This document shows positions 15,335-37,328 of a DNA stretch of 64,000 bases, in pieces (position 1 is the first letter of the stretch; each line of letters starts with the position of its first letter). Location of the stretch: positions 15,082 through 79,081 of the forward strand of contig NZ_JABBOU010000051.1 of assembly GCF_018853465.1 (NCBI RefSeq). The letters are read 5' to 3'. Source of the stretch: Acidithiobacillus montserratensis (GTDB lineage Bacteria > Pseudomonadota > Gammaproteobacteria > Acidithiobacillales > Acidithiobacillaceae). The position numbers were made by a program, and so were the translations under genes. The notes below the pieces were generated by a model. It was not told where the DNA came from. It searched no databases and saw only the letters and a program-made list of their open reading frames with translations.

Positions 15335-15338
<4 letters not shown>

Positions 15339-17565: not shown

Positions 17566-17958
17566 ACCAATCCTTGCCAAAGAATGTGATGTTTACAGCT
17601 ATCTCAGCAAGGTATGTGCCAACCTCAACAACCCTCGATACATTTTTTCAATATAGATTTATCATCTTGTTTTATGAAGATTAAAAATTAAGTACTGATT
17701 ACAAGCTGCTCTTGAATTCTCCTCATCCGAGATTGTGGCTGAATATTTTATTAAACATTGAGGTGCAGGGCGCACCAAAGTAATGCAGCCATCCATCACC
17801 ACTCCCTATCCTGGTGCAAGCGTCTTTTGCCCTATTAGGCGTGATGTATACAATATTTTTGCAGCCTTGCTGCACCCCCAATGAAAGCAAGCAAAGGCAT
17901 AACTTTTGCTTAGCATATTTAACACGACCACAAGACGACACAAGAAGGTAAAGACTGC
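17566..17958. promoter_or_regulatory. Divergent promoter region between beta-ureidopropionase and aminotransferase genes
   Basis: This gene-free, AT-rich interval must hold the promoters for the leftward pyrimidine operon and the rightward aminotransferase. At 17860-17874 there is a short perfect inverted repeat TGCAGC-ctt-GCTGCA, about 85 bp before the aminotransferase start. A purine/pyrimidine-biased AT block at 17640-17690 could contain the leftward -10/-35 elements. The XRE-cupin regulator encoded downstream is a natural candidate to bind here, but no binding site is proven. Confidence 0.4.
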
Positions 17959-19335: not shown

Positions 19336-19366
19336 CACATTGTCAATAGGGGGTGGGGTAAATCAC

Positions 19367-22297: not shown

Positions 22298-22407
22298 TAT
22301 ATTTACTCCTGTCGCTTACAAGTCATTTTAGTTAAGCAGCATACATGCCATGCTTAGCCCCATTCATCTTGGCTTATTCATCTCACTTAGCCGCGCAACA
22401 CTTTGCG

Positions 22408-22445
22408 TTATATTGGTGCAATAATATTTTTTTGCACCAATATAA
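22408..22445. repeat. Perfect 14-bp inverted repeat in the receptor/LysR divergent promoter
   Basis: TTATATTGGTGCAA (22408-22421) and TTGCACCAATATAA (22432-22445) are exact reverse complements separated by a 10-base AT-only spacer. It lies 111 bp upstream of the receptor start and 131 bp before the LysR start. Dyads of this quality between divergent genes are usually operators. The LysR protein encoded next to it is the obvious candidate binder. An alternative is an RNA hairpin in a leader, but it has no run of T residues placed for termination. Confidence 0.65.
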
Positions 22446-22575
22446 TGCGCAAAAGAAAATCATCGATTCCATGCTCTCCATGGTGAATTTTCATGATTAT
22501 GTTATAGTATACCGTCCGTTTATAGTGTTGTTTTATTGTTTAACCGTTCGAAAAAAATCAACGCGAGGCCTCTTC

Positions 22576-23478
22576 ATGAAACACCTACGTCTTTTCAAAT
22601 ACGTGGACGCTATTGTCCGTGAGGGCTCTGTCAGACGGGCTGCGGATAAATTGCACATCACGGCTTCGGCTTTGGATCGGCGAATTCAGGACTTGGAAGA
22701 CGAACTGGGCGCGAGCATTTTTGAGCGCCACCCCCGTGGAATGCGACTCTCAGCGGCAGGCGAGGTATTCTTGGTTTACGTGCGCAGACATTTATCGGAT
22801 ATGCAGCGTCTTCGCTCAGAAATCGATAGCCTCAATGGTTTACGGCGTGGACAAGTCTCCTTGGCAGTCAGCCCAGCCTTGGCCCGAGAATTTATCCCAC
22901 GGATCATTAATAACTTTCGCGCCCAGTATCCGGGGGTTTCTTTCGCGGTGAATGTTGCCAAACATGCGGATGCCATCCGCGCCTTATTGGCGTTTGAGGT
23001 AGATCTTGTGGTCATAGTTGCCCCTCCGCGCCATCCTGATGTCATTGATCTCGCTATATCAGAGCAGCCTCTGGTTGCCACTATGGATAGTCAACATCCT
23101 TTAGCAAACAAAGAACTACTCCGTTTCAGCGATTGCGTGCAATACCCATTGGTCATTCCTGCGCCGGGACTCACCTCCCGAGAAATGCTGGAATCCGCCT
23201 TGCATAGCGTCGCCTCGGAAATTCAAATTGCTGCCGAAACCAATTCCTACGAAATCATGCGCGGAATGTTGCAGAACTCTGAAAACATCGGCTTTGTGAT
23301 TTCCACAGGAACACCCAAACTACAAACCAATGAGCAGATTGTTTACAAAGCTATTTCGGCATTAGATATACGTCCGGTACCACTAGTCTGTGCGCAACTG
23401 AAAAGTCGGGGAATTTCTGTTGCTGCGGCGCGTTTTTCTAATTGTATTGCTGAAGAGTTGAATGAAATTTCAATTTAA
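22576..23478 (+). CDS. LysR-type transcriptional regulator
   Basis: 300 residues. The N-terminal winged HTH (residues 1-60: LRLFKYVDAIVREGSVRRAA, then DKLHITASALDRRIQDLED and FERHPRGMRLSAAGEVFL) is typical, followed by a periplasmic-binding-protein-like effector domain (about 90-300). The ATG at 22576 has GAGG 7 bases upstream; a longer frame to 22345 would cross the operator-like palindrome. It is divergent from the second TonB receptor and converges head-on with the last gene of the purine operon, with 3 bases between the stops. By analogy with AtzR, the LysR activator of atzDEF, it may control the AtzD/Hpx-like operon and the receptor (inference). Confidence 0.92.
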   Translation: MKHLRLFKYVDAIVREGSVRRAADKLHITASALDRRIQDLEDELGASIFERHPRGMRLSAAGEVFLVYVRRHLSDMQRLRSEIDSLNGLRRGQVSLAVSPALAREFIPRIINNFRAQYPGVSFAVNVAKHADAIRALLAFEVDLVVIVAPPRHPDVIDLAISEQPLVATMDSQHPLANKELLRFSDCVQYPLVIPAPGLTSREMLESALHSVASEIQIAAETNSYEIMRGMLQNSENIGFVISTGTPKLQTNEQIVYKAISALDIRPVPLVCAQLKSRGISVAAARFSNCIAEELNEISI

Positions 23479-23481: not shown

Positions 23482-25113
23482 TTAGATATCTACGCCCATC
23501 ACGCCGCCATCACTCCGCGGATCTGTTGCTGCTGCAAAAGTTGATTTCTCAGCATTTGCAAATCCAACCATGCCGGCGTGACCCATGACATCACTATAAT
23601 CGGGTACCCATGCAACCATGTGGCCCCAGCTCTGCAAGTCGTTGTATACCTGCTTTGGATATCGGTGTTCTAGCCGTAAACCTGCATTGCGTTCTCCCCA
23701 GGTACGGCCGTATAACCAACGGGGGCTGGCTACAGCTTCTGCCAGTGACAAGCCAAAGTGTTTAGCCCGCATGAGGATGGCAGCCTGTGTCTGCGGTTGT
23801 CCATCTCCTCCCATGGTGCCATAGGCTAGTTGTACTCGTTTATTTTCTGCATACATAGCCGGATTCAAGGTATGGAAAGGACGTTTGCCGGGTTCCAGGA
23901 TATTAATATGCCCCGGGGTCAATGAAAAAGCGCAGCCCCGGTTATTCCAAAGTACCCCGGTGTCACCCGCTACAACACCACACCCAAATTCATGATAAAG
24001 GCTTTGAATAACACTGACCATACGACCTGTAGCATCAGCAACGCCAAACCATACCGTATCGCCAGCACCAGTATCTAGGGCAGGTGAAGGCTGAATATGG
24101 CGCGGCTCAATCAAAGCGGCTATGTCATCCAGGAAGCTTGCTTTTAACAGGGCAGACAGATCGAAATCATGATAATGAGGGTCCGCTATGACCTGATCTC
24201 GCCAACCAAAAACCTGCTTCGTGATTTCTACACTGCAATGAATAAAATCAGCACCCCAATGATCTTCAAAGCTCGTTTTAAAACGATCTAACAGTGCCAG
24301 AATCATAAGCGAAGCCAATCCCTGAGTTGGTGCAGGTAAATTCAAGACTTCACCATGACCAAACGGAACCCGTAATGGTTGCATCCATTCAGTCCTGAAG
24401 CTGCTCATATCTTTCTCTGTCAAAAGACTACCTGAAGCGCGCAAGCCTTTGATCATTTTTTCTGCTAGATAACCTTGATAAAAGCTCTCAGGACCATTTT
24501 CTGCAATCTCTTTTATGGTTCTACCTAGCGCTTTTTGGGGCCAGACTGCATCCGGTTTGGGAATTTCACCATTCGGCATAAAAGCATGACTGAATCCTGG
24601 TTGCTTATATAAAACTGGCACATAATGGGTTAAGGTGGCTGTCTGATTAGGGCTGATCGGAAAACCACGTAGCGCATGTTCATAAGCCGTTTCCAGAAGG
24701 TCGCCCCAAGACAAACTTCCGTGCCAGGAATTTCTGGAATAATCATAAGCAGTTCCCCAACCAGCGACTATTCCAGGGACCGTCAATGCTGACCTTCCCC
24801 CTCGAAAAGGAATTTCTTGAATATGCGCATCACAAAAAGTATGGGCTGAGTATTTATGACCAGCCGGACCAGCAGCAGCCAAACCCATCGCTGATTCTGA
24901 ATTTCCATCGGAAATCAGCCAGAATGCGTCGCCGCCCAAACCATTCATATGGGGATAGACCACAGCCAGGGTTGATCCCACGGCAATGGCGGCCTCTATG
25001 GCATTCCCCCCCCTTCGCAACACTTCTCCACCAGCTTCTGCAGCCAGAAAATGAGGAGCACTGACTATACCGCCAGTTGCTTGTGCATATTTTTGAGGCG
25101 TAATGACTGTCAT
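23482..25113 (-). CDS. Gamma-glutamyltransferase-fold amidohydrolase, HpxW-like (oxamate amidohydrolase type)
   Basis: 543 residues of the Ntn-hydrolase GGT family without a recognisable signal peptide. The maturation and catalytic threonine is expected in GAGDTVWFGVADATG, where auto-cleavage would give a large and a small subunit. Other GGT blocks are GGNAIEAAIAVGSTLAVVYPHMNGLGGDAF and GTMGGDGQPQTQA. In Klebsiella the paralogue HpxW removes ammonia from oxamate in the oxalurate branch of urate catabolism and is encoded with HpxX, HpxY and HpxZ. The same set is found here just upstream, which favours an HpxW-like role over glutathione metabolism. Start 25113 overlaps the MocA-like stop as ATGA. 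Confidence 0.75.
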   Translation of the reverse strand: MTVITPQKYAQATGGIVSAPHFLAAEAGGEVLRRGGNAIEAAIAVGSTLAVVYPHMNGLGGDAFWLISDGNSESAMGLAAAGPAGHKYSAHTFCDAHIQEIPFRGGRSALTVPGIVAGWGTAYDYSRNSWHGSLSWGDLLETAYEHALRGFPISPNQTATLTHYVPVLYKQPGFSHAFMPNGEIPKPDAVWPQKALGRTIKEIAENGPESFYQGYLAEKMIKGLRASGSLLTEKDMSSFRTEWMQPLRVPFGHGEVLNLPAPTQGLASLMILALLDRFKTSFEDHWGADFIHCSVEITKQVFGWRDQVIADPHYHDFDLSALLKASFLDDIAALIEPRHIQPSPALDTGAGDTVWFGVADATGRMVSVIQSLYHEFGCGVVAGDTGVLWNNRGCAFSLTPGHINILEPGKRPFHTLNPAMYAENKRVQLAYGTMGGDGQPQTQAAILMRAKHFGLSLAEAVASPRWLYGRTWGERNAGLRLEHRYPKQVYNDLQSWGHMVAWVPDYSDVMGHAGMVGFANAEKSTFAAATDPRSDGGVMGVDI

Positions 25114-25718
25114 GGCAATCGTCTGGCTCGGATCCGAGAGGAGCACCATTCTCTCTGGGTATTAAGTCGAGGAAATGAATGATCCATTTTTCTGTTCAAA
25201 CGCTTATATTGTTCTGGAGGCAAATAACTGAGCTGTTTATCCAGGCGGGCATCGGGATTTTCCCATAATAGTGCTTGTAAATTTCTTGCCATAAAACCCG
25301 ATAACATCAACGGATGCCCACCACTCCCACAGTCATTGACCATGCTGGCCGCAGCAATTGTTTGATTTTGCATGGTGCGCCGCAAACACTGCAAGTCACT
25401 CACCGATGGTAATACCGTATCTGTTTGTACTATCAGTAGCGGATTACGGATGTTTTTTACGGCTCTTTGCAATGTACTGAATGGTCCCTGGACCGCCTTG
25501 AAATGGTGCCTAAAACTGACACGACGATGCAAACAGCGATGGACCCGTTGTGGCCGAAGACCCGTCACTACGATAACGGGTGCAAAACCTGCGTATCTGA
25601 GCCGATCTACTTGTCGATCAATCCAGGAACGCAGGTCGCCGGGAACTTTTCGACAAGATTTGTGTAAAGTTCCCGAACGAGAAGACCGACCACCGGCCAA
25701 AATGACGGCTACTGCCAT
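25110..25718 (-). CDS. MocA/MobA-like molybdenum-cofactor nucleotidyltransferase
   Basis: 202 residues. The N-terminal VAVILAGGRSSRSGTLHKS has the LAGG-x-SxR-x-G...K nucleotide-binding signature. LLIVQTDTVLP is the metal-binding Asp region, and SMVNDCGSGGHPLML carries the GHP motif found in MocA, which makes molybdopterin cytosine dinucleotide for xanthine dehydrogenase-family enzymes. It lies in the same operon as a molybdenum hydroxylase and XdhC, so cofactor supply to that enzyme is the likely role. The exact nucleotide (CTP or GTP) cannot be told from sequence. The stretch after the signature is somewhat atypical and rich in Arg. Confidence 0.75.
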   Translation of the reverse strand: MAVAVILAGGRSSRSGTLHKSCRKVPGDLRSWIDRQVDRLRYAGFAPVIVVTGLRPQRVHRCLHRRVSFRHHFKAVQGPFSTLQRAVKNIRNPLLIVQTDTVLPSVSDLQCLRRTMQNQTIAAASMVNDCGSGGHPLMLSGFMARNLQALLWENPDARLDKQLSYLPPEQYKRLNRKMDHSFPRLNTQREWCSSRIRARRLP

Positions 25719-25724
25719 GCAAAC

Positions 25725-26111
25725 TTAAGTATTTTTCGGCATCAGACTGACATGGGCGGCAACCACCCGCCAGCCCTCTGGGGTACGTAACCAGGTCTGA
25801 CTTTGCCGGCCGTGCACCTGATCACGTCGAAACTCTGTATTTGCGGTAGCAAAATCATAGCCATAAGTAGTTATGGTGGTATTGATTAATTCGCGATTCA
25901 GCGCTGGGGTCGGACGTGTTGCGCGAAAATCCGCAATTGCAGCATAACCATAGAGGTTCTCAGCTACTCCATAACGCAAAGTATGCTCGCTATTCCAGAA
26001 TAATTCATCTAATACTTCCACATCATTTTCAACCAAGGCTTTTTCGTAGCGTAGAAAAACTTCCTGCACTTCTTTAAATACTTCCGGCGCATTAATTTCA
26101 ACATAACTCAT
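25725..26111 (-). CDS. HpxZ/AtzH-like SnoaL-fold protein (DUF3225)
   Basis: 128 residues with the cone-shaped SnoaL/NTF2 fold pattern: [74 protein letters not shown]. Length and sequence match HpxZ of Klebsiella purine clusters and AtzH of cyanuric-acid clusters. AtzH converts 1,3-dicarboxyurea to allophanate, whereas the HpxZ reaction is less clear. Start is set at 26111 ([12 protein letters not shown]), overlapping the amidase stop by 14 bases. The substrate here is probably a dicarboxylated or ureido intermediate made by the amidase. Confidence 0.8.
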
Positions 26112-27522
26112 AGGGGTTTTCCTTCTGGTTTTGTGGAAGCGGACTGGTAAAACCGAATAACTCAAGATATCGTGCCACTCTCAAGGCTTTTTTTTCCTGC
26201 CAGGGTGCCGCAATAATCTGAACTCCAATGGGCATGGCTCCTGGTGTAGATACGGGGACAACAACTACCGGCAAGCCGATAAAGGAAAGGGGCTGGGTAT
26301 ATAATCCCAAATGCGGGCGGACCAGCATGCTGTGCCCGTCCAGTTCCATAGATCTCTGGCCGATAAGCGGAGCAGTCATCGGTGTAGCAGGTGCAATCAG
26401 CAGATCAAATTTTGCAAAAACCATTTGCATTTCTCTACGGTAATAACTGCGGAACCGCTGGGCTTGAATCACCCAGGAAGCAGGTAGTAAGGCACCAGCG
26501 AGCATACGATCACGCACGTCAGGATCGTAGTCCGCAGCATACTGTCGTAAACGTCCCAGATGTAAATTACTACTCTCTGCATTGGTAATCAGGTAGGCGG
26601 CCGCACGGGCTTGGGCTACACTGGCAATTTCTATTTCTTGAGTCACCCCAAGACAATCTATCACTTTCTGCACAGCTTGCTGCGCTTGTTCAGTAGCTTG
26701 TGTACGGAAATAACCCCCCGCAAGCGCAATTTTTAGATCGGCAATGCCGTCATCAAGGCCATCGCTAGTCAATTCACATTCCTGCTGCGCAGATACAGGG
26801 TCCTTAGGATCATAGCCTTGTAACACGTCATAAGCCATGGCCAAATCCATTACGTTACGTGCCATAGGCCCCACATGATCGAGGCTAGGACAAAACGGAA
26901 ATGTACCCGCACGCGACAGACGACCATATGTGGGTTTCAACCCAAAAATTCCACAGAGCGATGATGGCACACGTATTGAACCGTTCGTGTCAGAACCTAG
27001 AGCAACCGGTACCATCCCACCAGCTACCGCGGCACCACTGCCACCACTGGACCCGCCCGTCATGCGGGATAGATCATGAGGATTTCGTGATGGGCCGTAA
27101 TGCACATTCTCTCCTGTAAAGTCATAGGCATACTCACCCATGTTGAGCCCACCAAGAAGGACGGCCCCAGCAGCATTCATCTTATGAATCAGCGTGGCAT
27201 CCACTGTTGCCGGGGCGTCCTCCCGATTGATTTTGGAACCCGCCAAGGTCACTTGCCCTTCTATATCAAAAAGATTTTTAACCGCAAATGGCACACCAGC
27301 CATGGTGCCGGGATCTTCGCCCCTGGCGACTTTCCTATCTATCTGTTCAGCCTCATGGAGCGCTCGATCTTCGGAAACGTAGGTAAAAGCATTGAATTGA
27401 GTATTTGTGGATTGAACATACCGCAAAGATTCTTCAACCACCGCAACGGCTTTCCATTCACCAAGCCGCACTCTTCGGGCAATTTCTCGTGCCTCTGAAA
27501 AACTATGAAATAAATCGCTCAT
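26098..27522 (-). CDS. Amidase-signature hydrolase, AtzE/HpxY-like
   Basis: 474 residues with the full Ser-cisSer-Lys machinery: the lysine in [13 protein letters not shown], the Gly/Ser-rich [14 protein letters not shown], and the nucleophile serine in [29 protein letters not shown] is also typical. AtzE (1-carboxybiuret hydrolase) and HpxY (oxalurate branch) share this architecture, and both need a small partner encoded just before them, as is the case here. It overlaps the AtzG-like gene by 4 bases (ATGA), implying a fixed complex. Ureidomalonase of the barbiturate pathway is another possible function within the same enzyme class. Confidence 0.87.
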
Positions 27523-27719
27523 GGCCGAAACACCGTAGCAAGATCTTCAGTAAAATCGAGGGGAAATGCTTCAAGGACCCCCGCAAGATGGGCACTGATA
27601 TTGAAGTAATTACGAATATCTGGATACCAAGCGGTCTCTACTGTCAAGTCCATAGCTTCAAACGTGATCTGCATGTATTGTTCAATCATCGCCTCGCTGA
27701 GAGGCCTTAAAGTATTCAT
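27519..27719 (-). CDS. AtzG/HpxX-like small partner subunit (DUF4089)
   Basis: 66 residues, the size of AtzG/HpxX. It is predicted to be mostly helical (LSEAMIEQYMQITFEAMDL, then DIRNYFNISAHLAGVLEAFPL). These proteins resemble GatC and stabilise the AtzE/HpxY amidase. It overlaps XdhC upstream and the amidase downstream, each by 4 bases, so the three are translationally coupled. The identity rests on size, helical pattern, the DxxxxFPLDF..E C-terminal phrase and gene order. Confidence 0.78.
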   Translation of the reverse strand: MNTLRPLSEAMIEQYMQITFEAMDLTVETAWYPDIRNYFNISAHLAGVLEAFPLDFTEDLATVFRP

Positions 27720-28660
27720 GAAAATACTCCTTTATGGCGTAACTGTAACAACTCTGCCAAAATACTGACCGCAATTTCCATTGGTTTTTTGCCTATTCCA
27801 GGCAAACCCATAGGCATGTGTAGAAAATCTGGAATAGGGCGAGCAGCCCGGATAAGCTGATGTCTAAAACGTGCCGCCTTGGATTCACTGGCAATCACAC
27901 CGAGATATAACAGTGGCTGGTCGGCAAAATATTCCAGTAGAGCATAATCCAGAGCATGACTATAGGTCATAATCAAAACTATATTGGCACATTTCAGCTC
28001 CTTAATAACGCTTTGATCACAACTATTGGTCAATACAACTTCTTTTGGAAAATCGGCGGGATCAGTCCATTCTGGCCGATCATCATAAAGTGTGATCTGA
28101 AAATCCAGCCCAACAGCAAGGCGCGTAAAAGCGCGTCCGACATGCCCGGCACCAAAAATCCAAACGGTCTGTTGCTGAGGTGCCGGGAGCAAAAAATAAT
28201 CACCATGCACCGAAAATTCAGGAACTGAAGCAGTTTCAAGCAAGTTAAGCGCCACGGAATCTCCCAATCTCTGTCCATTGTTGGTAATCCCTGCTATCAA
28301 ATGCAAATATCCTCGCTCATCCACATGATAAGAGCGGGCTGCTCCTGAAGCATATAGCTCTGCAAAAAAAGGCTGGACATCTACTAAGGCGATAGCCACA
28401 CGACCACCGCAACACTGATCATCTTTTGTACCCAAAACAAATTCTACACGCGCATGCCAGTTTTTTTTATCCCTATTTCTCAACAAATTGAGAACAGAGT
28501 ATTCCATATGGCCACCGCCTACAGTACCCAAAACGTGATTATCGTCTCGCAAAGCAACGCTTCTACCTATCGCCGTGGGCGCCGATCCCTGTACTTGCAC
28601 GACCAAGGCCTCTGTAATTACCCGTGAATGATGTTTGGAGAGTTGTATCAGGGTATTCAT
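27716..28660 (-). CDS. xdhC: XdhC-family molybdenum-cofactor insertion/sulfuration chaperone
   Basis: 314 residues. The N-terminal XdhC/CoxI domain has VQGSAPTAIGRSVALRDDNH and VGGGHMEYSVLNLL. The C-terminal Rossmann domain has VWIFGAGHVGRAFTRLAVGL and VLIMTYSHALDYALLEYF. XdhC binds molybdenum cofactor, promotes its sulfuration and delivers it to xanthine dehydrogenase-family enzymes. It is separated from the hydroxylase genes by the ureidoglycolate lyase-like and ring-opening hydrolase genes, so the chaperone and the ring-opening steps are one transcriptional unit. It overlaps both neighbours by 4 bases. Confidence 0.9.
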   Translation of the reverse strand: MNTLIQLSKHHSRVITEALVVQVQGSAPTAIGRSVALRDDNHVLGTVGGGHMEYSVLNLLRNRDKKNWHARVEFVLGTKDDQCCGGRVAIALVDVQPFFAELYASGAARSYHVDERGYLHLIAGITNNGQRLGDSVALNLLETASVPEFSVHGDYFLLPAPQQQTVWIFGAGHVGRAFTRLAVGLDFQITLYDDRPEWTDPADFPKEVVLTNSCDQSVIKELKCANIVLIMTYSHALDYALLEYFADQPLLYLGVIASESKAARFRHQLIRAARPIPDFLHMPMGLPGIGKKPMEIAVSILAELLQLRHKGVFS

Positions 28661-29730
28661 GGGGCGATTCCGATTATTGCTACTGGACCGCCCCCCTGGG
28701 GCCCTTGATGCTCAGCACGGGTAGAGACGTAAACACCTGTGTCTCCAAGCACTCCTGCCAGCAGTGCTGCCACAACGCAACGGGAATAGCGCATATCCGA
28801 AATATCGGCATCCGTCCACATCGTATGCCGACGATTCCTAATATAATTCCCAGGATGAGCATCGGACTTGGCAAATACGCCGACAATTTTTTTGGAATCA
28901 CCTGCAGTGAGTTGTCCATTCACAGGCTTTATTCCCAGCTGCTTAAGAACGCCATAAATACTTGGTACATCAATGATATCGCGCATCAAGCCATGAGCTA
29001 TCGCCAGATCGCCTTCCCAGCAATCGGAATTCGCAAAAAGTATGATTTCAGAACGTATCAAGCATGGTTTTGCAGAGACGCTGGCTCTACTAGAATACAA
29101 AGACCAATCACTTTGAATAGCGGCATCAGATAACTGATTCTCGCTTATCTCACCCAGCGCCAAGGCTACACCAAGGGCTGAGGCGGCTCGCGACCAGGCC
29201 ATATCACAACGGAGCGCTGTTGCGGGCGAAGAAACTGGGGGAATAGCTGCTTTTATTTGCACCAGATGCACATCATCGGCAGTTACCCGTAACTCCTGCA
29301 TCAAATTTACCACTACTCGAGCAGTCTCATGAATCATAGCCATGCGTCCTACTTCATCTGGCGAAAAATTTCTGCTCGAGCCAGTTGCAATGGCCAGTCT
29401 TTTGCTTGACCGTTTTAATGTCGACGGCTGACCAATTACAGAAAACACCAAAAGATGCGGTGCAGTTACCCCCTCACTTCCTCCCGAAAAAGACAATACG
29501 ATCCTTTCTTCAACCTGCTCCGGAAGACAATCCAAAAAAGGGGCCAGAAGATAACCCAGTGCCTGAATAGACAAATTCCTTGTGAAATCATTTATCCCGC
29601 CATTACCTTCCGTTTTGCCGATAATGGCAACAATATTCTGGGGATGTATTTCTTCACGGGCAATGGCATCCACCAAACCCGACATGTCAGCGGGACTTTG
29701 AGTAAAAAAACGAGCCACTTCAGTGCGCAC
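28657..29730 (-). CDS. Ring-opening amidohydrolase, cyanuric acid hydrolase/barbiturase (AtzD) family
   Basis: 357 residues of a small, distinctive family with a three-fold repeated domain and three Lys-Ser pairs. Pair 1: K in IGKTEGNGGINDFTRN and S in SFSGGSEGVTAPHLLVF. Pair 2: K in VQIKAAIPPVSSP and S in SRASVSAKPCL. Pair 3: K in GVFAKSDAHPGNYIRNRRHT and S in YVSTRAEHQGPQGGGPVA. All appear intact. Known members open cyanuric acid to 1-carboxybiuret or barbiturate to ureidomalonate. The start is GTG at 29730 with GAGGTGAAG upstream. Embedded in a purine operon without uricase, the true substrate is open: barbiturate, or an oxidised purine-derived ring, are candidates. Confidence 0.9.
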   Translation of the reverse strand: MRTEVARFFTQSPADMSGLVDAIAREEIHPQNIVAIIGKTEGNGGINDFTRNLSIQALGYLLAPFLDCLPEQVEERIVLSFSGGSEGVTAPHLLVFSVIGQPSTLKRSSKRLAIATGSSRNFSPDEVGRMAMIHETARVVVNLMQELRVTADDVHLVQIKAAIPPVSSPATALRCDMAWSRAASALGVALALGEISENQLSDAAIQSDWSLYSSRASVSAKPCLIRSEIILFANSDCWEGDLAIAHGLMRDIIDVPSIYGVLKQLGIKPVNGQLTAGDSKKIVGVFAKSDAHPGNYIRNRRHTMWTDADISDMRYSRCVVAALLAGVLGDTGVYVSTRAEHQGPQGGGPVAIIGIAP

Positions 29731-29748
29731 GAAACTTCACCTCAATGC

Positions 29749-30327
29749 TTAAAACGGCACTTTCAAAGTTCGACCCGTACGTCTGCGAATATCAATTTTA
29801 TAGACATCTCCTGCATCCATTTCATCTGCACTTTTAGCATTGGCCAGGGCGTGCACCACTTCATCGGAGTTCATGGTTAAAACTGTCACTGGATCAACGA
29901 TGGCCATTGGAAAATCATGCCAAGTACCCGCATGAATCATAACGCCATGACCTGCAGGAATACGAAAGGCACACACATCTTCCAAGCAAGGGGCATCATG
30001 TCCGGTAGCTTGATTCGGCTTGCCTAACACCATAGCAAATGGTGACGTACCAAGCCCGACAAAAATTTGGGTCATATTCAAATGCCGTTCTAGCCAGGTA
30101 ATTTCCGGACTGCGGTGTGAAATACGTGCTGTGCGGATCACCGCCTGTCCAGTATACTTAAAATCCAGATTTTGCCCTTCTTCAACGCTCCCTTTATAAA
30201 AAGGAATACTCAATCCTGGTCGGTATACCGCTTCAGTAATCATCACCCCATAGTCTTGCATATTTTCTGGATTAGCATCTACAAAGGGAATTTCCATTAC
30301 CATATTATCTTCTAATTGGGCGCCCAT
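29749..30327 (-). CDS. Ureidoglycolate lyase (AllA)-family cupin protein
   Basis: 192 residues, slightly longer than AllA (about 160). Cupin motifs match the family: WLERHLNMTQIFVGLG (LERH..xQ.F) and IPAGHGVMIHAGTWHDFPMA (the WH metal/substrate motif). AllA converts ureidoglycolate to glyoxylate and urea. Here it sits directly before the AtzD-family gene and after the FAD subunit of the hydroxylase, with no allantoinase or allantoicase nearby to make ureidoglycolate. It may therefore act on another ureido acid such as ureidomalonate (inference). RBS GAGGAG precedes the ATG. Confidence 0.75.
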   Translation of the reverse strand: MGAQLEDNMVMEIPFVDANPENMQDYGVMITEAVYRPGLSIPFYKGSVEEGQNLDFKYTGQAVIRTARISHRSPEITWLERHLNMTQIFVGLGTSPFAMVLGKPNQATGHDAPCLEDVCAFRIPAGHGVMIHAGTWHDFPMAIVDPVTVLTMNSDEVVHALANAKSADEMDAGDVYKIDIRRRTGRTLKVPF

Positions 30328-30347
30328 ATTACTCTCCTCTTTGCTCG

Positions 30348-31199
30348 TTATTCAACGTGTTGTATGGCATCCCAGATCAGACGGGATGTGGTTTCCAGAC
30401 GATATTCTGCGCTTGAGCGAATATCATCAACCGGTGCAATATCATGCGTTATACCTTTCCGAACTATTGCCGCATCAATCTGCTTGATCTTCTTTCCCTG
30501 TAAATAATGACTTACAGTGGGCAAACTACAGGGAATCGCTGCTACGCTGGCAATACCAAACCGGGCCTGGACAATGGTCTTAGCTGCATCTATCTGAAAA
30601 CAAGCGGCAACACCAACTTTTGCAATGGCCTGCGCGGCACGGGTACCTACTTTCCGGTATAAACTGACGGATTTATCGGGAGGATAAGGAATATGCACCG
30701 CAACAAGTAACTCCGCTGCAGCCAAAGCAGTTTTGCGATAAGCGACATGAAAGGCGGCATAATCCATGATGCGCGATCCCTGTTGGCCGGCAATTTCAAG
30801 ACTGGCCCCATATGCCAGTAATACGGGAGCATTATCTGCAGCGGGAGAGGCATTACATAGGTTCCCACCCAGAGTGGCACGATTCTGTATAGGTGCAGCA
30901 CCGGTCACTGCAGCAGAAGCAGCCAACATTGGCCAGAATTTTTGGACTTGTGGATGGCGTCGCAAAGCGCTCAGCGTCACCCCCGCTCCGATGCGAATAC
31001 CCTTGTCATGAACTTCGATCTCTTTTAAATCCGGGATGGCGCTCAAATCTAACCAATCCCGGTTTTTTTGATGCATACTCAATCGCTGTGTCACCATGAC
31101 ATCCGTGCCCCCGGAAATGATCTGATAATGATCTAGGGGCATTTTAGAGAGTAAGCTTATGGCTTCACCCACCCGTTGAGGACGCACCCATTCAACCAT
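30348..31199 (-). CDS. Xanthine dehydrogenase-type FAD-binding subunit
   Basis: 283 residues of the CO-dehydrogenase/XDH FAD family. QIISGGTDVMVTQRLSMHQ is the FAD diphosphate-binding loop, and NRATLGGNLCNASPAADNAP is the second FAD signature. The subunit passes electrons from the [2Fe-2S] centres to NAD+ or another acceptor. Start is placed at 31199 (MVEWVRPQ), with AGGAG upstream, overlapping the iron-sulfur subunit by 8 bases. It is part of a three-gene molybdenum hydroxylase (Mo, 2Fe-2S, FAD order). Confidence 0.9.
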   Translation of the reverse strand: MVEWVRPQRVGEAISLLSKMPLDHYQIISGGTDVMVTQRLSMHQKNRDWLDLSAIPDLKEIEVHDKGIRIGAGVTLSALRRHPQVQKFWPMLAASAAVTGAAPIQNRATLGGNLCNASPAADNAPVLLAYGASLEIAGQQGSRIMDYAAFHVAYRKTALAAAELLVAVHIPYPPDKSVSLYRKVGTRAAQAIAKVGVAACFQIDAAKTIVQARFGIASVAAIPCSLPTVSHYLQGKKIKQIDAAIVRKGITHDIAPVDDIRSSAEYRLETTSRLIWDAIQHVE

Positions 31200-31650
31200 G
31201 AGTAACTCCTGTGGCAGCCTGAAGAACCGCTTCATAAATGCGACCGTAACCCGTACAGCGACATAAATTCCCGCTGAGTCCCTCCCGTATTTCTTCTAGC
31301 GTGGGCTGCGGATACTCACTCAGCAATGCCGTTGCTGCCATCATCATTCCCGGGGTACAAATTCCACATTGGGCGGCAAAACAGGCATGAAAAGAGGCCA
31401 CCAACGGACTGTCAGAAGGTAAGCCTTCTATCGTCACAATGTCGGCGTTATCCATTTGCCCCAGAGGAAGCAAACAACTGTTGAGAACCTGACCATTGAC
31501 TAAAACTGCACAGGCCCCGCACTCCCCCTCACCACAGCCCTCCTTGGTCCCTTTCAAACCCAGTTCATCACGCAATACGTCCAGGAGGCGGCTATCTGGC
31601 TTTGCCTGCACTTGCATTTTCTGACCATTTATCTGCATGCTTACTTTCAT
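31192..31650 (-). CDS. Xanthine dehydrogenase-type [2Fe-2S] subunit
   Basis: 152 residues. It has the plant-type ferredoxin domain ([15 protein letters not shown]) and the helical [2Fe-2S] domain ([12 protein letters not shown] and [16 protein letters not shown]). These eight cysteines hold the two clusters that carry electrons from molybdopterin to FAD. Length is typical of XdhC/CoxS-type small subunits. Start 31650 overlaps the Mo subunit stop as ATGA. Confidence 0.94.
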
Positions 31651-33911
31651 TGGGACACTCTCTCTGAACAAGCCAGTTTCATCAACAATTCCGGCATCAC
31701 GGGGATCTGATCAATGTTCATTTTTAATGCCTGTTGAATAGCATTCACAATGGCCGGCGCCGGGCCATCCATGGGAAGCTCTCCTACCCCCTTTGCACCT
31801 TTGGGACCGGCACCCAATCCTTTCTCCATCAATACCACTTGTATAGGCCCGATATCCGCAGTGGTTGGGATAATATAATTAGTCAAACGATCATTGGCCA
31901 TCACCCCAACATCGTTCCAGAGCACGTTTTCATAGAGTGCATAACCAATACCCTGCACTACCCCCCCCTCGATCTGTCCCTGTACAATTTGCGGATGTAC
32001 CGCATGCCCTATTTCCTGGACGGCAGTAAAGTTCAGGATACGGGTTTCATAAGTTAATTTATCAATTTCCACTTCGGCAATATATGCAGCCCAAGCGAAA
32101 CTGGAATAAGCTCGACCAGTAAATTTATTTTCATCCCAAAGCATTTGCGCGGGCGGTTGATAGCTCGCTGACACCAACAAATCTTTTTTAGACTCCTGCA
32201 TCCGGAGACAGGCATCAGCAAATTCATCAACTGAATATAGCTTGGAAAGTCCACCTTCAGTCATTAGCTTCTGCAATAAAAGATTGGCTGCTCTTTCAAC
32301 TAACTCACCAACCACCATACATGTGCGAGAAGCAACAGTCGGTCCGGAATTAGGCACTCTTGTTGTATCCGTTTGCGCCAGGTGAATCTTGTCCATGGGT
32401 AATTGCAGAGCATCAGCAGCGATTTGTACTAAGGTGGTCGCAGCACCCTGGCCCATCTCCGTATTTGAGCACAGAATCTCTACCTGACCGTTGCCATGAG
32501 CTTGCAACAATACTCGCGAAGCCAGATATAATTCACCATTCCCAGTGAAGCCTGCTCCGTGTGCAAAGGTTGCCAAACCAATGCCGCGAACAGTACCATT
32601 ATTTTGTTTATTCCAATGTTTAAATTCTGCCTGACGCTCATAATATTGACTTACCCGAAGTGCTTCTTCGAGAGCATCCTGAGCAAAGCAATCGTTTTGA
32701 AGAATATCACCTGTCGGACTGACATCCCCACTCCTTAACAAATTTTTTCGACGAAACTCTGCAGGATCCATTGCTAACTTTGCAGCGAGCTGATCCATCG
32801 CCACTTCCAGAGCAAAAATACTCTGCGGAGCGCCAAACCCGCGAAATGCTCCAAAAGGAGGATGATTAGTAGCTATGGCACGCCCTCTAACCCGAATATT
32901 TTTGCAGAAATAAGGTCCAGGAGCATGAATAACTCCACGAGACAGGACGACCGGGCTTAGCGTCCGGTAAGCACCACCATCAATGGCAAAATCCATGTCG
33001 ATAAATTGCAGTTCACCAGCACGGTTTGCACCAAGGCGAAGCATCGTGCGTGAAGGATGCCGTTTAGGTGTAACCCGCATATCCTCACCGCGTTCATAAA
33101 CCAGTTTGACTGGTTTCCCACCAGCTTTGATGGCCAGCAAAGCAGCATGACAAGCAATTACCGAAGGATAATCTTCTTTACCGCCAAAGGCACCACCCGT
33201 TGTAGTTTGTACAACGCGCAGTAGGTCTTTACTTAATCCCGTACATTGCTCCAAAGCGTCCAAAACATAATAAGGACATTGCATCGAACCGTCGATTCTC
33301 AGTACCCCATCATTCTGCAGGATGGCAATCATACCTTGAGGTTCTATATAAAGCTGTTCCTGTGAAGGAGTAATGAACCTTGCATCGATAAAACATTCAA
33401 TTTCATCGAAAGACTTATCAACATCACCTTTCTCAAGAAGATAATCTGAATATACATTGCCTGGAATTATCTTATTTTCGGCAGAGAGAGCTTCATCAAT
33501 ATCAAAAACTGGATGCGCTAGAGGTACTTCGTGAACGCGAATATGAGATAAAGCTTTTTTGAGCATATCCGGTTCAGAATGTCCCAACAGAACCAACGCC
33601 TCCCCCGCGTGACGAAATACCCGATCCACCAATACTGGCTGATCATTCTCCAGCAGCTTGACAGCATTAAGCCCCGGAATATCTTTTGCTGTGACAATAA
33701 TGAATTCAGACCAGTCAAGCGCTGGGTCAAAAAAAATCTCTTCGACTACACCACCAGCACTTGCAGTACGCAACGTCGTTGCATATATGACATCGTTTAA
33801 TTCAATATCATCTACATACACAGCCGTCCCTAAGATCTTAGAAAGACCGTCAACACGCTTTGGTTGAGCTTTGTCAACTACCGCGCCAACATCTCTCTTA
33901 TATATTTCCAT
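31647..33911 (-). CDS. Xanthine dehydrogenase-type molybdopterin subunit
   Basis: 754 residues. It hydroxylates N-heterocycles such as hypoxanthine and xanthine. TTTGGAFGGKEDYPSVIAC holds the Mo-cofactor loop with the Glu that positions purine (bovine E802 equivalent). NHPPFGAFRGFGAPQSIF holds the Arg matching bovine R880. GAKGVGELPMDGPAPAIVNA holds the catalytic base Glu. Retention of both substrate residues favours a purine substrate over uracil, which a related uracil/thymine dehydrogenase would use. Start 33911 (MEIYKRDVG) has AAGGTGAG upstream. Downstream come the 2Fe-2S and FAD genes; upstream is an exported nucleoside permease-family protein. Confidence 0.92.
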   Translation of the reverse strand: MEIYKRDVGAVVDKAQPKRVDGLSKILGTAVYVDDIELNDVIYATTLRTASAGGVVEEIFFDPALDWSEFIIVTAKDIPGLNAVKLLENDQPVLVDRVFRHAGEALVLLGHSEPDMLKKALSHIRVHEVPLAHPVFDIDEALSAENKIIPGNVYSDYLLEKGDVDKSFDEIECFIDARFITPSQEQLYIEPQGMIAILQNDGVLRIDGSMQCPYYVLDALEQCTGLSKDLLRVVQTTTGGAFGGKEDYPSVIACHAALLAIKAGGKPVKLVYERGEDMRVTPKRHPSRTMLRLGANRAGELQFIDMDFAIDGGAYRTLSPVVLSRGVIHAPGPYFCKNIRVRGRAIATNHPPFGAFRGFGAPQSIFALEVAMDQLAAKLAMDPAEFRRKNLLRSGDVSPTGDILQNDCFAQDALEEALRVSQYYERQAEFKHWNKQNNGTVRGIGLATFAHGAGFTGNGELYLASRVLLQAHGNGQVEILCSNTEMGQGAATTLVQIAADALQLPMDKIHLAQTDTTRVPNSGPTVASRTCMVVGELVERAANLLLQKLMTEGGLSKLYSVDEFADACLRMQESKKDLLVSASYQPPAQMLWDENKFTGRAYSSFAWAAYIAEVEIDKLTYETRILNFTAVQEIGHAVHPQIVQGQIEGGVVQGIGYALYENVLWNDVGVMANDRLTNYIIPTTADIGPIQVVLMEKGLGAGPKGAKGVGELPMDGPAPAIVNAIQQALKMNIDQIPVMPELLMKLACSERVSQ

Positions 33912-33961
33912 AATAAATCTCACCTTAAATACGTCAAAACCACTGACGAAATATTCGCACA

Positions 33962-34990
33962 TTAATTACTGTTATTGTTTTTTTTATCAACATCCAGAAT
34001 ATGTTTAATAATCGCCTTAGTTACTTTGACGGCGTTTTCTTCGGCCAACTCACTAGCATAAAGATCTCCAGTTTTCCAGATTTGCTCCTCAGTTTTCCCT
34101 GGTGGCGGAATATCAATATCTGAGATACCACGAACTGACAAATAATTATTTTCCAAACCAAATCGAGATAAAGCGGCAACATCACCAAGATCTTCCATGG
34201 CTGTATTGGTATACGCAGCTTGGCCATGAGTATAGAGATTTACAATCTTTTCAGCTATGGCCTGATTTTCTTTACCAATCCAAAAGTCATCGCCTGTAAT
34301 CGTCGCCCCAACCATAATTTTAGGCTGAGTAGAAATGGAAAAAGTGTGATCCAGCTTTTTAGCTTCGGAAGTATTCTCCAGTTTTACACCTGCAGATGCT
34401 TTCACCGCCATATTCAATATTTGTGGATTAATCTTATAGGCAAGATTCTCCAGTGTATTTTGTGTGAAATTGGCACAATCACCAGGGTGTGAGTAATCAT
34501 CACATCCTGGCGGCGCCCAAGCCAACGTTTTTTTATCACTCAAATAGTGATGACCAAATGCCCACGAAACAACCCAGCTATTAATATAAACACTACCGAG
34601 TGCTGATTCTTTATTATCAACACCACCGGCTATGCCACTACGTATAAATATGGTTTTTCTCACGTTCAGTTCAGGGTCTTTCACCATACTTGTAACCGAT
34701 ATAGCTGCGTTCATTTCTCCTTCGCCTGTTTCAGTTACGCAAACCCCGTGTTCATTACATATCAGGGGTCGATATAATCCAGGAATATTTATGCTTTTAT
34801 ACTGATATGATTTTTGACTTTTCCATGCATGCCATTCTGGTGGGAAAGCTGTTAATACGATCACTTTTGGTTGCATAATCAGTGATTTTTGACCTGCTGC
34901 TGGGTTAGCAAAAGCCTCGTTTGCTATTATTGCCAGCCCTACGAAAAAGGGTACCATGCCAATTCTAATATTCTTATCTAAAAATCTCAT
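33962..34990 (-). CDS. Exported purine nucleoside permease (NUP)-family protein, phosphorylase-like fold
   Basis: 342 residues with a clear signal peptide (IGMVPFFVGLAIIANEAFANPA). The body matches the NUP family: VIVLTAFPPEWHAW, FIRSGIAGGVDNKESALGSV, ITGDDFWIGKENQAIAEK, NTAMEDLGDVAALSRFG and VRGISDIDIPPPGKT. NUP was named from a fungal nucleoside transporter, but it has no membrane segments beyond the signal and looks like a nucleoside phosphorylase/nucleosidase. A periplasmic nucleoside-binding or -cleaving role is inferred. It differs from the exported nucleosidase at 4.2 kb, so the island carries two unrelated exported nucleoside proteins. It sits between adenine deaminase and the Mo hydroxylase. 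Confidence 0.8.
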   Translation of the reverse strand: MRFLDKNIRIGMVPFFVGLAIIANEAFANPAAGQKSLIMQPKVIVLTAFPPEWHAWKSQKSYQYKSINIPGLYRPLICNEHGVCVTETGEGEMNAAISVTSMVKDPELNVRKTIFIRSGIAGGVDNKESALGSVYINSWVVSWAFGHHYLSDKKTLAWAPPGCDDYSHPGDCANFTQNTLENLAYKINPQILNMAVKASAGVKLENTSEAKKLDHTFSISTQPKIMVGATITGDDFWIGKENQAIAEKIVNLYTHGQAAYTNTAMEDLGDVAALSRFGLENNYLSVRGISDIDIPPPGKTEEQIWKTGDLYASELAEENAVKVTKAIIKHILDVDKKNNNSN

Positions 34991-35011
34991 AATTTCTTCC
35001 TTTTCCTACTA

Positions 35012-36043
35012 TTAAGATAGAAAACCATCAACATAATTTTCTAGTGCTGAAAACATTTGCTTTTTTTTCTCTGTGGTACAGAAAGAAGCTTCTATAGCAT
35101 TTTTTTGCAGTAAAATTATATCATTGATATCGCGTTCTAGACAGTTTACAGTGCTGATGATGTTTTCATTCAGATACCCCCCGAAATAAGCCGGATCATC
35201 AGAATTAATGGTCACATGTAAACCTGCATCTATCATTTTACCCAAATTATGAGATTCAAGATCGGGGAAAACCTTGAGTTCCACATTGGAAAAAGGACAC
35301 ACAGTCAACGGAATACGTTCTTCCAACAATCGCTCAACCAAACCAGAATCCTCTAGACAACGCACACCATGATCAATACGTTCCACCTTCAAGAGGTTCA
35401 AGGCTTCCCATATATATTCTGGCGGTCCTTCTTCACCTGCATGTGCAACTCGATGTAGTCCTAAGTTTTTAGCCCTCTGAAAAACCTCTTGAAATTTACG
35501 AGGAGGATTCCCAAGCTCTGCCGAATCCAAACCGATTCCTGCAATTCCACCAATTTTCATGGCGTCGTGCAGAAGACTAACCGTTGACTCTGCGTCACGG
35601 TCTCTTTCGAAACAGAGAATCAGCGCACTACTTATCCCCCATTCACATTCTGCTTCTGCAAGGGCTGAACGAATCCCCCCCATAACCACATCTAGGGCAA
35701 TCCCATGAGACAAATGTGTCTGAGGATCAAAAAAAATCTCCGTATGCATTATTCCTTGCTGTTTACAGCGCTGCAGATAAGCTTTAGTTAATTCATAAAA
35801 ATCAAGCTCTTCACGTAAAACCGAGGCTCCTAGATAATAGACATTAAGAAAACTTTGTAAATCCTTAAACTGGTAAGCAGATCTGGCGCTCTCGATATCT
35901 TTATAGGGCAAATTGATTTCATTCCGCTGCGCAAACCTCAGTAACATCTCTGGCTCAAGGGTTCCCTCGATATGAAGATGTAATTCTACTTTGGGCATAT
36001 GCTTTACGAAGCTTTCAAACTCTATTTTGCTTTCTTCTTTCAT
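35012..36043 (-). CDS. Adenine-type deaminase (adenosine deaminase family)
   Basis: 343 residues, zinc TIM barrel. Zinc and catalytic residues: VELHLHIEGTLEPEML (H-x-H), HRVAHAGEEGPPEYIWEAL (HAGE), RIDHGVRCLEDSG and VTINSDDPAYFGGYL (SDDP). The block TEIFFDPQTHLSHGI is the variant found in the adenine deaminase branch (Aah1-like) rather than in adenosine deaminases, so adenine to hypoxanthine plus ammonia is the preferred call. This fits exported nucleoside cleavage and base uptake. It starts 44 bases after the guanine deaminase stop. Confidence 0.85.
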   Translation of the reverse strand: MKEESKIEFESFVKHMPKVELHLHIEGTLEPEMLLRFAQRNEINLPYKDIESARSAYQFKDLQSFLNVYYLGASVLREELDFYELTKAYLQRCKQQGIMHTEIFFDPQTHLSHGIALDVVMGGIRSALAEAECEWGISSALILCFERDRDAESTVSLLHDAMKIGGIAGIGLDSAELGNPPRKFQEVFQRAKNLGLHRVAHAGEEGPPEYIWEALNLLKVERIDHGVRCLEDSGLVERLLEERIPLTVCPFSNVELKVFPDLESHNLGKMIDAGLHVTINSDDPAYFGGYLNENIISTVNCLERDINDIILLQKNAIEASFCTTEKKKQMFSALENYVDGFLS

Positions 36044-36087
36044 TCGGTAAAACGCTCCTAATGTTTGTTATAGACTCAGATGAATAC

Positions 36088-37320
36088 TCAGGCGGCACGC
36101 TCACTAGCGAGCCAGGTTCCTTGTGGTCGTTCTTCTAATTCAGACATTGTTCCGCCAATACATTCAGAGAACCAACCGTCCCAGGACTGATTCTTTTGCT
36201 TAGATGGCAATAATATAAAATCTGCTCTTTTCCCCGGACATAGATTTCCTGCAATGGCATCTCGATTCATCGCCTCAGCGCCAGCTAATGTGGCACGATA
36301 GAGCGCTTCTTGAAAGGAGATCTTAATCCCCGCTTTTCGGTGTATCGCTATAAATCTCTGAATGACATGCAACATACTATGACTTGGACCGGCACCAACA
36401 TCAGTTGCTAATGCATATGGAATATGATATTCCTGCAATTTCTCCAGAGGCATACGGTTGTTTCCGAGTGCCTCGTTACTACTCGGACAATGGGCGACCC
36501 AAGAACCTCGTGCAAACAGACATTGCCATTCTGAATCATTCATTTCGATGCAGTGCCCAAGAATAGTTTTTGGCGTAAGCAAACCCGCCTTATCATAAAC
36601 TTGCGTATAGCTTTCGGCATCCGGAAATAACTCCTTGACCCACGCTATCTCAGCATTTGATTCAGCTAAATGTGTCTGCACAAATGAAGATGTTTGAACT
36701 GCTATCATACCAAGATAACTAAGAATTTCTGTACTGAGATTGGGTGCGAAACGTGGCGTTAACGCATAATGGTGACGATCATTTCTCATCATAATTTCGT
36801 TTAAAAGAATAGGATCATGTAAACTATAATCGGTTAAATCATTAGGGGCATTTATAGCCATCAACACATTGCCAATTATCCAGTCACCACGCATTTTTTG
36901 CATGGCAATCTCTGTTGCTGCGGCATGCGGACTAGAGTAACTCATTCCCATGACTGTACCTGCCCGCAACATATCGGCATAAAACTCTTCTGCTGCCTGA
37001 CCTGCCTTTCCAGTATCTATATAACTTGCTTCCTCAGGCCATATATGCTCCTTTAACCAGGTTAATAATTCTCCAGAATATTTACCCCTTACTTGATGCT
37101 GTACCCAATGTAAATGCACATCAGCAAATCCCGGCATCAACACCCCATCCAACTCTACAGTTTCAATATTATTTTCACATCCTTTAATTACATCACTAAA
37201 ATACCCTATTTTTTTAATTATACCATCCTCTGTATAAATTGCCCCATCAACAAAGCAGTCTGCAACCGCGTGATTTCTGGGATTTATGATTGAAGCTCGA
37301 AATATTTTTTTATTTTCCAT
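36088..37320 (-). CDS. guaD: Guanine deaminase
   Basis: 410 residues, amidohydrolase family. It hydrolyses guanine to xanthine and ammonia. Visible sites are LMPGFADVHLHWVQHQVRG (H-x-H zinc motif followed by the guanine-specific loop), SFVQTHLAESNAEIAWVKEL, SYTQVYDKAGLLTPKTILGH, AHCPSSNEALGNNRMPLE and YALATDVGAGPSHSML (zinc Asp). These follow the guanine deaminase pattern rather than cytosine deaminase or chlorohydrolases. Its product xanthine is the presumed substrate of the hydroxylase encoded further down the operon. It starts 8 bases after the permease stop. Confidence 0.88.
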   Translation of the reverse strand: MENKKIFRASIINPRNHAVADCFVDGAIYTEDGIIKKIGYFSDVIKGCENNIETVELDGVLMPGFADVHLHWVQHQVRGKYSGELLTWLKEHIWPEEASYIDTGKAGQAAEEFYADMLRAGTVMGMSYSSPHAAATEIAMQKMRGDWIIGNVLMAINAPNDLTDYSLHDPILLNEIMMRNDRHHYALTPRFAPNLSTEILSYLGMIAVQTSSFVQTHLAESNAEIAWVKELFPDAESYTQVYDKAGLLTPKTILGHCIEMNDSEWQCLFARGSWVAHCPSSNEALGNNRMPLEKLQEYHIPYALATDVGAGPSHSMLHVIQRFIAIHRKAGIKISFQEALYRATLAGAEAMNRDAIAGNLCPGKRADFILLPSKQKNQSWDGWFSECIGGTMSELEERPQGTWLASERAA

Positions 37321-37328
37321 CTTTTCTA

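Follow-up and report, generated by a model that had tools for sequence, protein, structure and literature searches.

An operon in Acidithiobacillus montserratensis that most likely encodes a purine pathway without uricase

A 64,000-nucleotide stretch of Acidithiobacillus montserratensis DNA (contig NZ_JABBOU010000051.1; 'the window', whose coordinates are used for all positions) carries a real and conserved operon that most likely encodes a purine pathway without uricase. In its middle lie the genes for an AllA-like cupin and for a predicted ring-opening hydrolase of the AtzD family, Group IV; AtzD itself acts in the opening of herbicide rings. We judge it probable that this AllA-AtzD pair has a uricase-free purine role in these operons, an estimate that covers the role and not one exact intermediate. 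As read from sequence, the case is made by gene content, conservation, linkage, the separate clade of the AtzD protein and the usual genes that were not found. The operon offers a physiological role for Group IV AtzD proteins, left without a function since 2013, and would let sulfur- and iron-oxidising acidophiles use purine nitrogen. If the reading is true, mineralisation of this nitrogen can proceed with neither uricase nor allantoin, and the genes for s-triazine degradation have a natural source in purine catabolism.

The genes form a single minus-strand run from 40730 down to 23482, in which purine uptake, salvage, oxidation and ring-degradation genes stand in the order ExbB-like, short open reading frame (ORF), TonB, NCS1 permease, guanine deaminase, adenosine deaminase, purine nucleoside permease/phosphorylase family protein (NUP), molybdenum (Mo) hydroxylase (three subunits), AllA-like, AtzD family, XdhC, HpxX-Y-Z, MobA/MocA-like and HpxW (Table 1). 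Gene spacing suggests a single transcript and hence one operon. The original prediction had described the part between 23482 and 33911, and all the genes it claimed there are present, on the minus strand and in the order given. Its operon is borne out in content and falls short in extent, the run being longer: permease and salvage genes, separated by short gaps (33962-38732), and the TonB and ExbB genes precede it. Two of its gene names fit less closely. The supposed MocA gene is present as a MobA/MocA-like nucleoside triphosphate (NTP) transferase, for which the name is weak (TIGR03310, 27.5 bits versus a cut-off of 186), and the supposed ureidoglycolate lyase-like gene encodes a protein that has the AllA fold in a structure model and stays well short of the NCBIfam ureidoglycolate lyase families (best score 32.3 bits versus a cut-off of 230).

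The AtzD clade and its pairing with the AllA-like cupin

The AtzD-family protein keeps the three Ser-Lys dyads of the Toblerone fold (Ser82/Ser219/Ser336 and Lys39/Lys160/Lys288), and the dyad residues are invariant across 15 aligned clade members; its structure model has a predicted local distance difference test score (pLDDT) of 87.2. The Gly345-Gly346 pair that follows the third serine (AtzD numbering) is replaced by Thr337-Arg338. The motif STRAEH is found in 27 of 27 clade proteins (the window and 26 loci) and SGGAEH in all eight other AtzD proteins; two places after the nucleophile serine the STRAEH clade has a lysine (SAKP-type motif) and the other AtzD proteins a glycine. In a tree of these 35 rows, with the motif columns kept in and barbiturases not included, the STRAEH clade makes up one side of a branch with support of 100/100.

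A matching signature is on record. Peat et al. (2013; PMC3758960) define Group IV by Arg195, Met/Thr321, Arg325, Thr345 and Arg346, list Acidithiobacillus and Sulfobacillus members in it, and set it apart from both AtzD and barbiturase. The window protein has Arg181, Met313, Arg317, Thr337 and Arg338 at these positions, as counted on the AtzD alignment, and in the same alignment the barbiturase signature (Asn195, His321, Lys325, Val345 and Ser/Ala346) is absent. It thus has the clade and signature of Group IV, Acidithiobacillus members included, and beyond the accessible text of PMC3758960 the clade is seen here also in metagenome-assembled genomes (MAGs) of Myxococcota and Obscuribacterales. 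In that accessible text Group IV is assigned no function, a role tied to acidophile physiology is suggested, and the words 'purine' and 'xanthine' are absent from the main text. Position 345 is described as touching the substrate in cyanuric acid hydrolases (accessible text of PMC3758960 and PMC6557486), and Thr-Arg at this place suggests a different, perhaps carboxylated, substrate for Group IV enzymes.

The pairing with the AllA-like gene is widely kept. The AtzD family occurs in 14 of the 31 genomes of the order Acidithiobacillales, and each of the 14 has one AtzD gene with an AllA-like gene adjoining it, which argues that the pairing is not due to chance; Acidithiobacillus sp. HP-2 (G010) carries a second, different AtzD gene without an AllA-like one. 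Purine salvage genes lie in the same run in 11 of 12 operon copies (12 stretches of about 20 kb each), the exception again being G010, where other genes stand in their place. When the genome collection was scanned for the AllA-like protein with two strict peptide patterns, which may miss distant members, 23 loci came up in Acidithiobacillus and near relatives, Acidiferrobacter-like MAGs, Myxococcota/Deltaproteobacteria MAGs and a single MAG of Obscuribacterales. Of the 369 genomes of the class, five, A. montserratensis included, matched a profile built from the AtzD clade; it found the clade in G304, G398 and G056, and the SGGAEH type in G213 and, as an additional gene, in G398. With these three genomes and the megaplasmid of A. 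caldus SM-1, 27 loci besides the window were available, and in 26 of them the clade AtzD gene lies directly downstream of the AllA-like gene (the exception is L046; in L114 about 1.3 kb is inserted between the two). The pair is likewise combined with a Mo hydroxylase in five loci of Acidiferrobacter-like type and in another two genomes of Gammaproteobacteria. Novosphingobium plasmids encode homologues of the AllA-like protein (30-34%), and no AtzD relative was found in the two stretches searched.

SGGAEH-type genes were seen in other settings. That of G010 (9505-10671 of L021) has, by eye, look-alikes of a flavin monooxygenase, an ATP-binding cassette (ABC) transporter and a transposase as neighbours. 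The one on Polaromonas pE10SP1 (L092) adjoins an annotated ureidoglycolate lyase gene, with hydA not far away, and so shows AtzD and AllA as neighbours in another type of setting.

The uricase route and the companion enzymes

Uricase had been reported missing from the window, a claim that now extends to the whole genome, where uricase, PuuD, 2-oxo-4-hydroxy-4-carboxy-5-ureidoimidazoline (OHCU) decarboxylase and 5-hydroxyisourate (HIU) hydrolase all lack a match. Uricase was found in none of 38 genomes (PuuD and OHCU decarboxylase were sought in the A. montserratensis genome only), and HIU hydrolase in none of 13 Acidithiobacillaceae and in two of 26 genomes overall, the Myxococcota MAGs G035 and G040. 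For HpxO and allantoinase (AllB), which the original prediction had proposed to look for genome-wide, nothing exceeds the cut-offs and weaker matches exist for both. All 26 genomes searched give some HpxO match and none passes the cut-off of 500 bits; A. montserratensis has a single partial match (21.9 bits), candidates in Acidithiobacillaceae are partial and reach at most 38.1 bits, and longer ones in two Myxococcota genomes (254 and 280 bits) were rejected as below the cut-off. AllB gives weaker superfamily matches in 20 of 20 genomes and passes its cut-off in none, in a search that did not include allantoicase. The best AllB match of the A. montserratensis genome (199 bits) proved to be the neighbouring dihydropyrimidinase, and six Acidithiobacillaceae genomes encode a 502- or 488-amino-acid (aa) relative scoring 251-277 bits, below the cut-off of 358. 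No urate oxidase of the uricase, PuuD or HpxO kind was thus recognised in the A. montserratensis genome.

The Mo-binding subunit has xanthine dehydrogenases (XDHs) and oxidases as its closest solved relatives. Its E263, R342 and E728 align, by counting on the alignment, with E802, R880 and E1261 of the bovine enzyme, which we take to be two substrate-pocket residues (Glu and Arg) and the catalytic Glu, respectively. No NCBIfam equivalog passes its cut-off (pucD 421 versus 784 bits, XdhA_XDHase 362 versus 780). Family and residues together suggest that the Mo hydroxylase makes urate.

The AllA-like cupin is the proposed first enzyme to attack the ring, and gene order, from the Mo hydroxylase through AllA-like and AtzD to HpxX-Y-Z and HpxW, points to the product of that hydroxylase as its substrate. 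Its AlphaFold2 model (pLDDT 87.7) is nearest to the solved AllA structures 2bdr, 1xsr, 1xsq and 1yqc; the top five structures are all ureidoglycolate hydrolase chains (E 2.7e-10 to 1.0e-8), and the top ones align with a template modelling (TM) score of 0.66-0.69 (by query) at 19-21% identity. E80, R81, H82, Q87 and H137, residues common to AllA, are retained.

The operon ends in relatives of AtzE, AtzH and 5hft. At the HpxX/AtzG place, where the window encodes a 66-aa product, the gene of A. caldus SM-1 is annotated DUF4089 and that of pADP-1 AtzG. HpxY/AtzE has 6c62 as its closest solved relative (467.5 bits; the entry is named biuret hydrolase), which we take to be AtzE, and HpxZ/AtzH is closest to AtzH 6bjt (172 bits), whose Tyr22 and Arg46 are retained as counted on the alignment; its true start may be internal, at about residue 19. 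The HpxW-type protein, with Thr365 at the start of its small chain, matches the single PDB chains 2nlz (233 bits) and 2i3o (223) best, followed by 5hft (210 for the large and 196 for the small chain), presumably Klebsiella HpxW. By its relation to 5hft it is a putative oxamate hydrolase.

The companion set varies between hosts. HpxX, AtzE and HpxZ occur in all Acidithiobacillaceae loci compared that extend far enough (L038 ends earlier; HpxX of strain YTS05, L037, was identified by eye). They were not found in five of five Acidiferrobacter-like loci, among which L039 ends at AtzD, so that its missing AtzE says little. The Acidiferrobacter-like loci have BiuH (404 bits versus a cut-off of 370 in L040) and a ChrR-type cupin, encoded in a divergent run that also holds guanine deaminase and a gamma-glutamyltransferase (GGT) family gene, and L115 has BiuH-like, HpxX, AtzE and HpxZ genes all together. 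Wherever a xanthine dehydrogenase lies beside the AllA-AtzD pair, AtzG-E-H (HpxX-Y-Z), BiuH or both are also present. Either is known to follow AtzD when cyanuric acid is degraded, according to the accessible text of PMC6219798 and PMC5806882, and the accessible text of a 2025 study (PMC12625717) describes nitrifiers that have biuret and oxalurate genes side by side without the upstream purine genes. The two pairings would be explicable if one compound could yield both oxalate or oxalurate and biuret.

Allophanate hydrolase (AtzF) exceeds its cut-off in 10 of 26 genomes, namely all five of the BiuH-only type, five of 13 Acidithiobacillaceae and none of the eight Myxococcota/Obscuribacterales, and does not do so in A. 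montserratensis. Urease occurs in six of the 26 (two of 13, two of five BiuH-only and two of eight, respectively), with no match in A. montserratensis.

Proposed pathway and rival explanations

In the pathway proposed here, all reactions of which we infer, the deaminases and the nucleoside phosphorylase-like protein would deliver hypoxanthine and xanthine, which the Mo hydroxylase would convert to urate. The AllA-like cupin and then Group IV AtzD, in the sequence that gene order suggests, would dearomatise urate and open the ring, giving a compound of oxalyl-ureide or oxalyl-biuret type. By analogy with the Klebsiella and pADP enzymes, HpxX-Y would remove the terminal ureido nitrogen, HpxZ would decarboxylate the carbamate, and HpxW would split the oxalyl amide to oxalate and ammonia. 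In the Acidiferrobacter-like variant BiuH would take the place of HpxX-Y-Z, with allophanate hydrolase encoded elsewhere in the genome. Of the two options raised in the original prediction, the opening of an oxidised purine by the AtzD-family enzyme is therefore favoured, because purine salvage genes lie in the run, the Mo-subunit residues are XDH-like, the AtzD protein is of Group IV and the genes of the uricase route were not found.

The Klebsiella hpx purine pathway uses HpxO and HpxX-Y-Z-W. The window operon resembles it in having xanthine oxidation first and HpxX-Y-Z-W last, and differs in that no HpxO, HIU hydrolase, OHCU decarboxylase or AllB is recognised in the genome and that AllA-like and Group IV AtzD genes stand in the middle. 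With the atzDGEHF cyanuric acid operon of pADP-1 it shares an AtzD-family gene followed by AtzG, AtzE and AtzH in the same order. Unlike that operon, it has no AtzF (nor does one pass the cut-off in the genome), its AtzD is of another clade, and Mo hydroxylase, AllA-like and HpxW genes are added. Clusters of the order ggt-atzG-atzE-atzH appear in the accessible text of PMC6219798. The Acidiferrobacter-like variant recalls the BiuH route of Rhizobium leguminosarum 3841, given in the accessible text of PMC5806882 as an AtzD-family enzyme, BiuH and allophanate hydrolase; it differs in its Group IV AtzD and in the Mo hydroxylase, guanine deaminase and GGT genes nearby. Among the open-access literature matches listed, so far as their text is accessible, none connects this purine pathway with Group IV AtzD or with Acidithiobacillus.

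A more specific version, which we hold to be unlikely, is a natural s-triazine pathway through oxonate (allantoxanate), drawing on the general chemistry of oxonate. The AllA-like cupin would catalyse urate + O2 + H2O = oxonate + CO2 + NH3, and Group IV AtzD, gripping the carboxylate with Arg338 and Lys221 (both placed by alignment, not coordinates), would open oxonate to N-oxalylbiuret, perhaps the simplest compound to fit both companion sets. HpxX-Y-Z, followed by HpxW, might shorten this from one end; alternatively, an HpxW-like enzyme might split it to oxalate and biuret, the latter for BiuH and AtzF. Triuret and cyanuric acid can arise by chemical oxidation of urate (accessible text of PMC7948467). 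Were this version true, the enzymes of cyanuric acid breakdown would have branched off from a purine pathway.

Several observations weigh against a uricase-free purine role for the pair. AllA family enzymes are urea-releasing lyases, and the fold and residues of the cupin suit such a lyase no less well than they suit an enzyme that uses oxygen. The AtzD protein passes, if barely, the cyanuric acid amidohydrolase equivalog NF052395 (367 versus a cut-off of 360 bits), and the best single PDB match of the HpxW protein is 2nlz, which only the summed 5hft chains exceed. The operon of YTS05 (G022, a complete genome) lacks Mo hydroxylase, XdhC and MocA, with the rest intact, and no PF02738 match was found anywhere in that genome; the strain may live on urate taken up from outside, or the pathway may work without the Mo hydroxylase, which is present in every other Acidithiobacillaceae, Acidiferrobacter-like, G304 and G398 locus compared. 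Near the pair in the eight Myxococcota/Obscuribacterales loci the purine genes of the window were not found, save a GGT gene in L050, and six of the eight have a thiamine pyrophosphate (TPP) enzyme or a PanE-like reductase there. The TPP enzyme occurs in five (L043, L045, L047, L049 and L051; NF006203 was tested in two), and the reductase in three (L045, L046 and L051). By Pfam the TPP enzyme of L045 and L051 carries a fused alpha/beta hydrolase, and those of L047 and L049 are similarly long (826 and 810 aa). Each of the eight genomes encodes Mo hydroxylases away from the pair. None of the neighbour genes named here accompanies the pair in G056 (L116).

A further objection is that an unfamiliar urate oxidase may be encoded elsewhere in the genome, which leads to a patched classical route that we regard as doubtful. 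That oxidase would make 5-hydroxyisourate, AtzD would serve as a non-homologous HIU hydrolase, and the AllA-like protein would take urea or CO2 from OHCU. AtzD would then cleave a ring amide bond of the type that HIU hydrolase acts on, its basic R338 and K221 would suit a carboxylated product, the lyase chemistry of the AllA family would be kept, and both jobs are open, HIU hydrolase being unfound in the 13 Acidithiobacillaceae genomes and OHCU decarboxylase in that of A. montserratensis. Such a route would require a conserved operon without its candidate oxidase, given the uricase and HpxO counts above; urea nitrogen would be lost in a genome without a urease match or an allophanate hydrolase over the cut-off, and BiuH in the sister gene runs would be left unexplained.

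Quite improbable is a purely hydrolytic route, in which AtzD would attack xanthine or urate itself at the six-membered ring, and the AllA-like protein would release urea from the opened product or rearrange it. Clostridial xanthinase is a precedent for direct hydrolytic opening of the xanthine ring, and YTS05 would fit, having deaminases, AllA-like, AtzD and HpxX-Y-Z-W without a Mo hydroxylase. Hydrolysis of an aromatic purine is hard, however, the product would need neither an oxalyl amidase (HpxW) nor a biuret hydrolase, and the Mo hydroxylase is present in all the other loci of these groups, as stated above.

Very improbable, finally, is known chemistry, in which AtzD is a cyanuric acid hydrolase or barbiturase of the usual kind and the operon serves s-triazines or an oxidative uracil route: NF052395 and the pADP-1-like AtzD-G-E-H order speak for it, and the Group IV specificity residues, the purine salvage genes in the same run, the adjoining reductive pyrimidine set and the want of an allophanate hydrolase over the cut-off against. 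An ordinary cyanuric acid hydrolase was rejected on specificity residues and operon content. The other option of the original prediction, oxidation of uracil to barbiturate, is abandoned: a reductive pyrimidine set lies next door (8187-19278), with PreA and dihydropyrimidinase over their cut-offs, which makes an oxidative pyrimidine route in the window unlikely, and the AtzD protein is not of barbiturase type.

Neighbouring genes

The TonB, ExbB and TonB-dependent receptor genes near the window operon and its copies in relatives suggest TonB-driven uptake of purines or nucleosides. The LysR-type regulator gene beside the operon is present in most relatives' stretches.

Table 1. Genes of the purine operon and its surroundings (window coordinates; scores in bits)
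Feature	Position	Strand	Evidence
ExbB/TolQ-like proton channel, probable first operon gene	40032..40730	-	PF01618 89
Short ORF between ExbB-like and TonB genes	39584-39988	-	
TonB-family protein	38756..39517	-	PF03544 43.5; TIGR01352 over cut-off
NCS1-type nucleobase permease	37329..38732	-	PF02133 68
Guanine deaminase (guanine to xanthine)	36088..37320	-	best families NF006679 315 (cut-off 351), TIGR02967 309 (cut-off 375), both below
Adenosine deaminase	35012..36043	-	NF006850 490, over cut-off 419
Purine nucleoside permease/phosphorylase family (NUP)	33962..34990	-	PF06516 164; PF01048 30
Xanthine-dehydrogenase-type Mo-binding subunit	31647..33962	-	PF02738, PF20256
[2Fe-2S] subunit of Mo hydroxylase	31192..31671	-	PF01799, PF00111
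FAD subunit of Mo hydroxylase	30348..31235	-	PF00941, PF03450
AllA-like cupin, proposed first ring-attacking enzyme	29749..30327	-	PF04115 41.6, over cut-off 23
AtzD-family ring-opening hydrolase (predicted), Group IV, STRAEH clade	28657..29730	-	PF09663 405
XdhC-type maturation factor	27716..28660	-	PF13478 103
HpxX/AtzG small subunit, 66 aa	27519..27719	-	position and size
HpxY/AtzE amidase	26098..27522	-	NF006631 699, TIGR02715 669.5, both over cut-offs
HpxZ/AtzH	25725..26165	-	NF033625 HpxZ 195.4, over cut-off 135
MobA/MocA-like NTP transferase	25110..25718	-	PF12804 70.6
HpxW-type GGT-family amidohydrolase	23482..25149	-	PF01019
LysR-type regulator beside operon	22345..23478	+	PF03466, PF00126
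TonB-dependent receptor, possible outer-membrane purine importer	19970..22297	-	PF00593 104; linked in relatives
Aminotransferase AptA	17959-19278		645, cut-off 500
Uridine phosphorylase, NCS1 permeases	within 8187-17580		uridine phosphorylase 295, cut-off 262
Dihydropyrimidinase	within 8187-17580		587, cut-off 393
PreA	within 8187-17580		654, cut-off 335
Flavoprotein, PreT type by position	within 8187-17580		below cut-off
Carbamoyl-amide hydrolase relative	within 8187-17580		below cut-off

The reductive pyrimidine set adjoins the purine operon and is accompanied by a gene for a PuuR-like regulator at 19340-19924. On the megaplasmid of A. caldus SM-1 (L086), the cassette from Mo hydroxylase to HpxW is flanked on both sides by an IS5 transposase gene, and may therefore be mobile.

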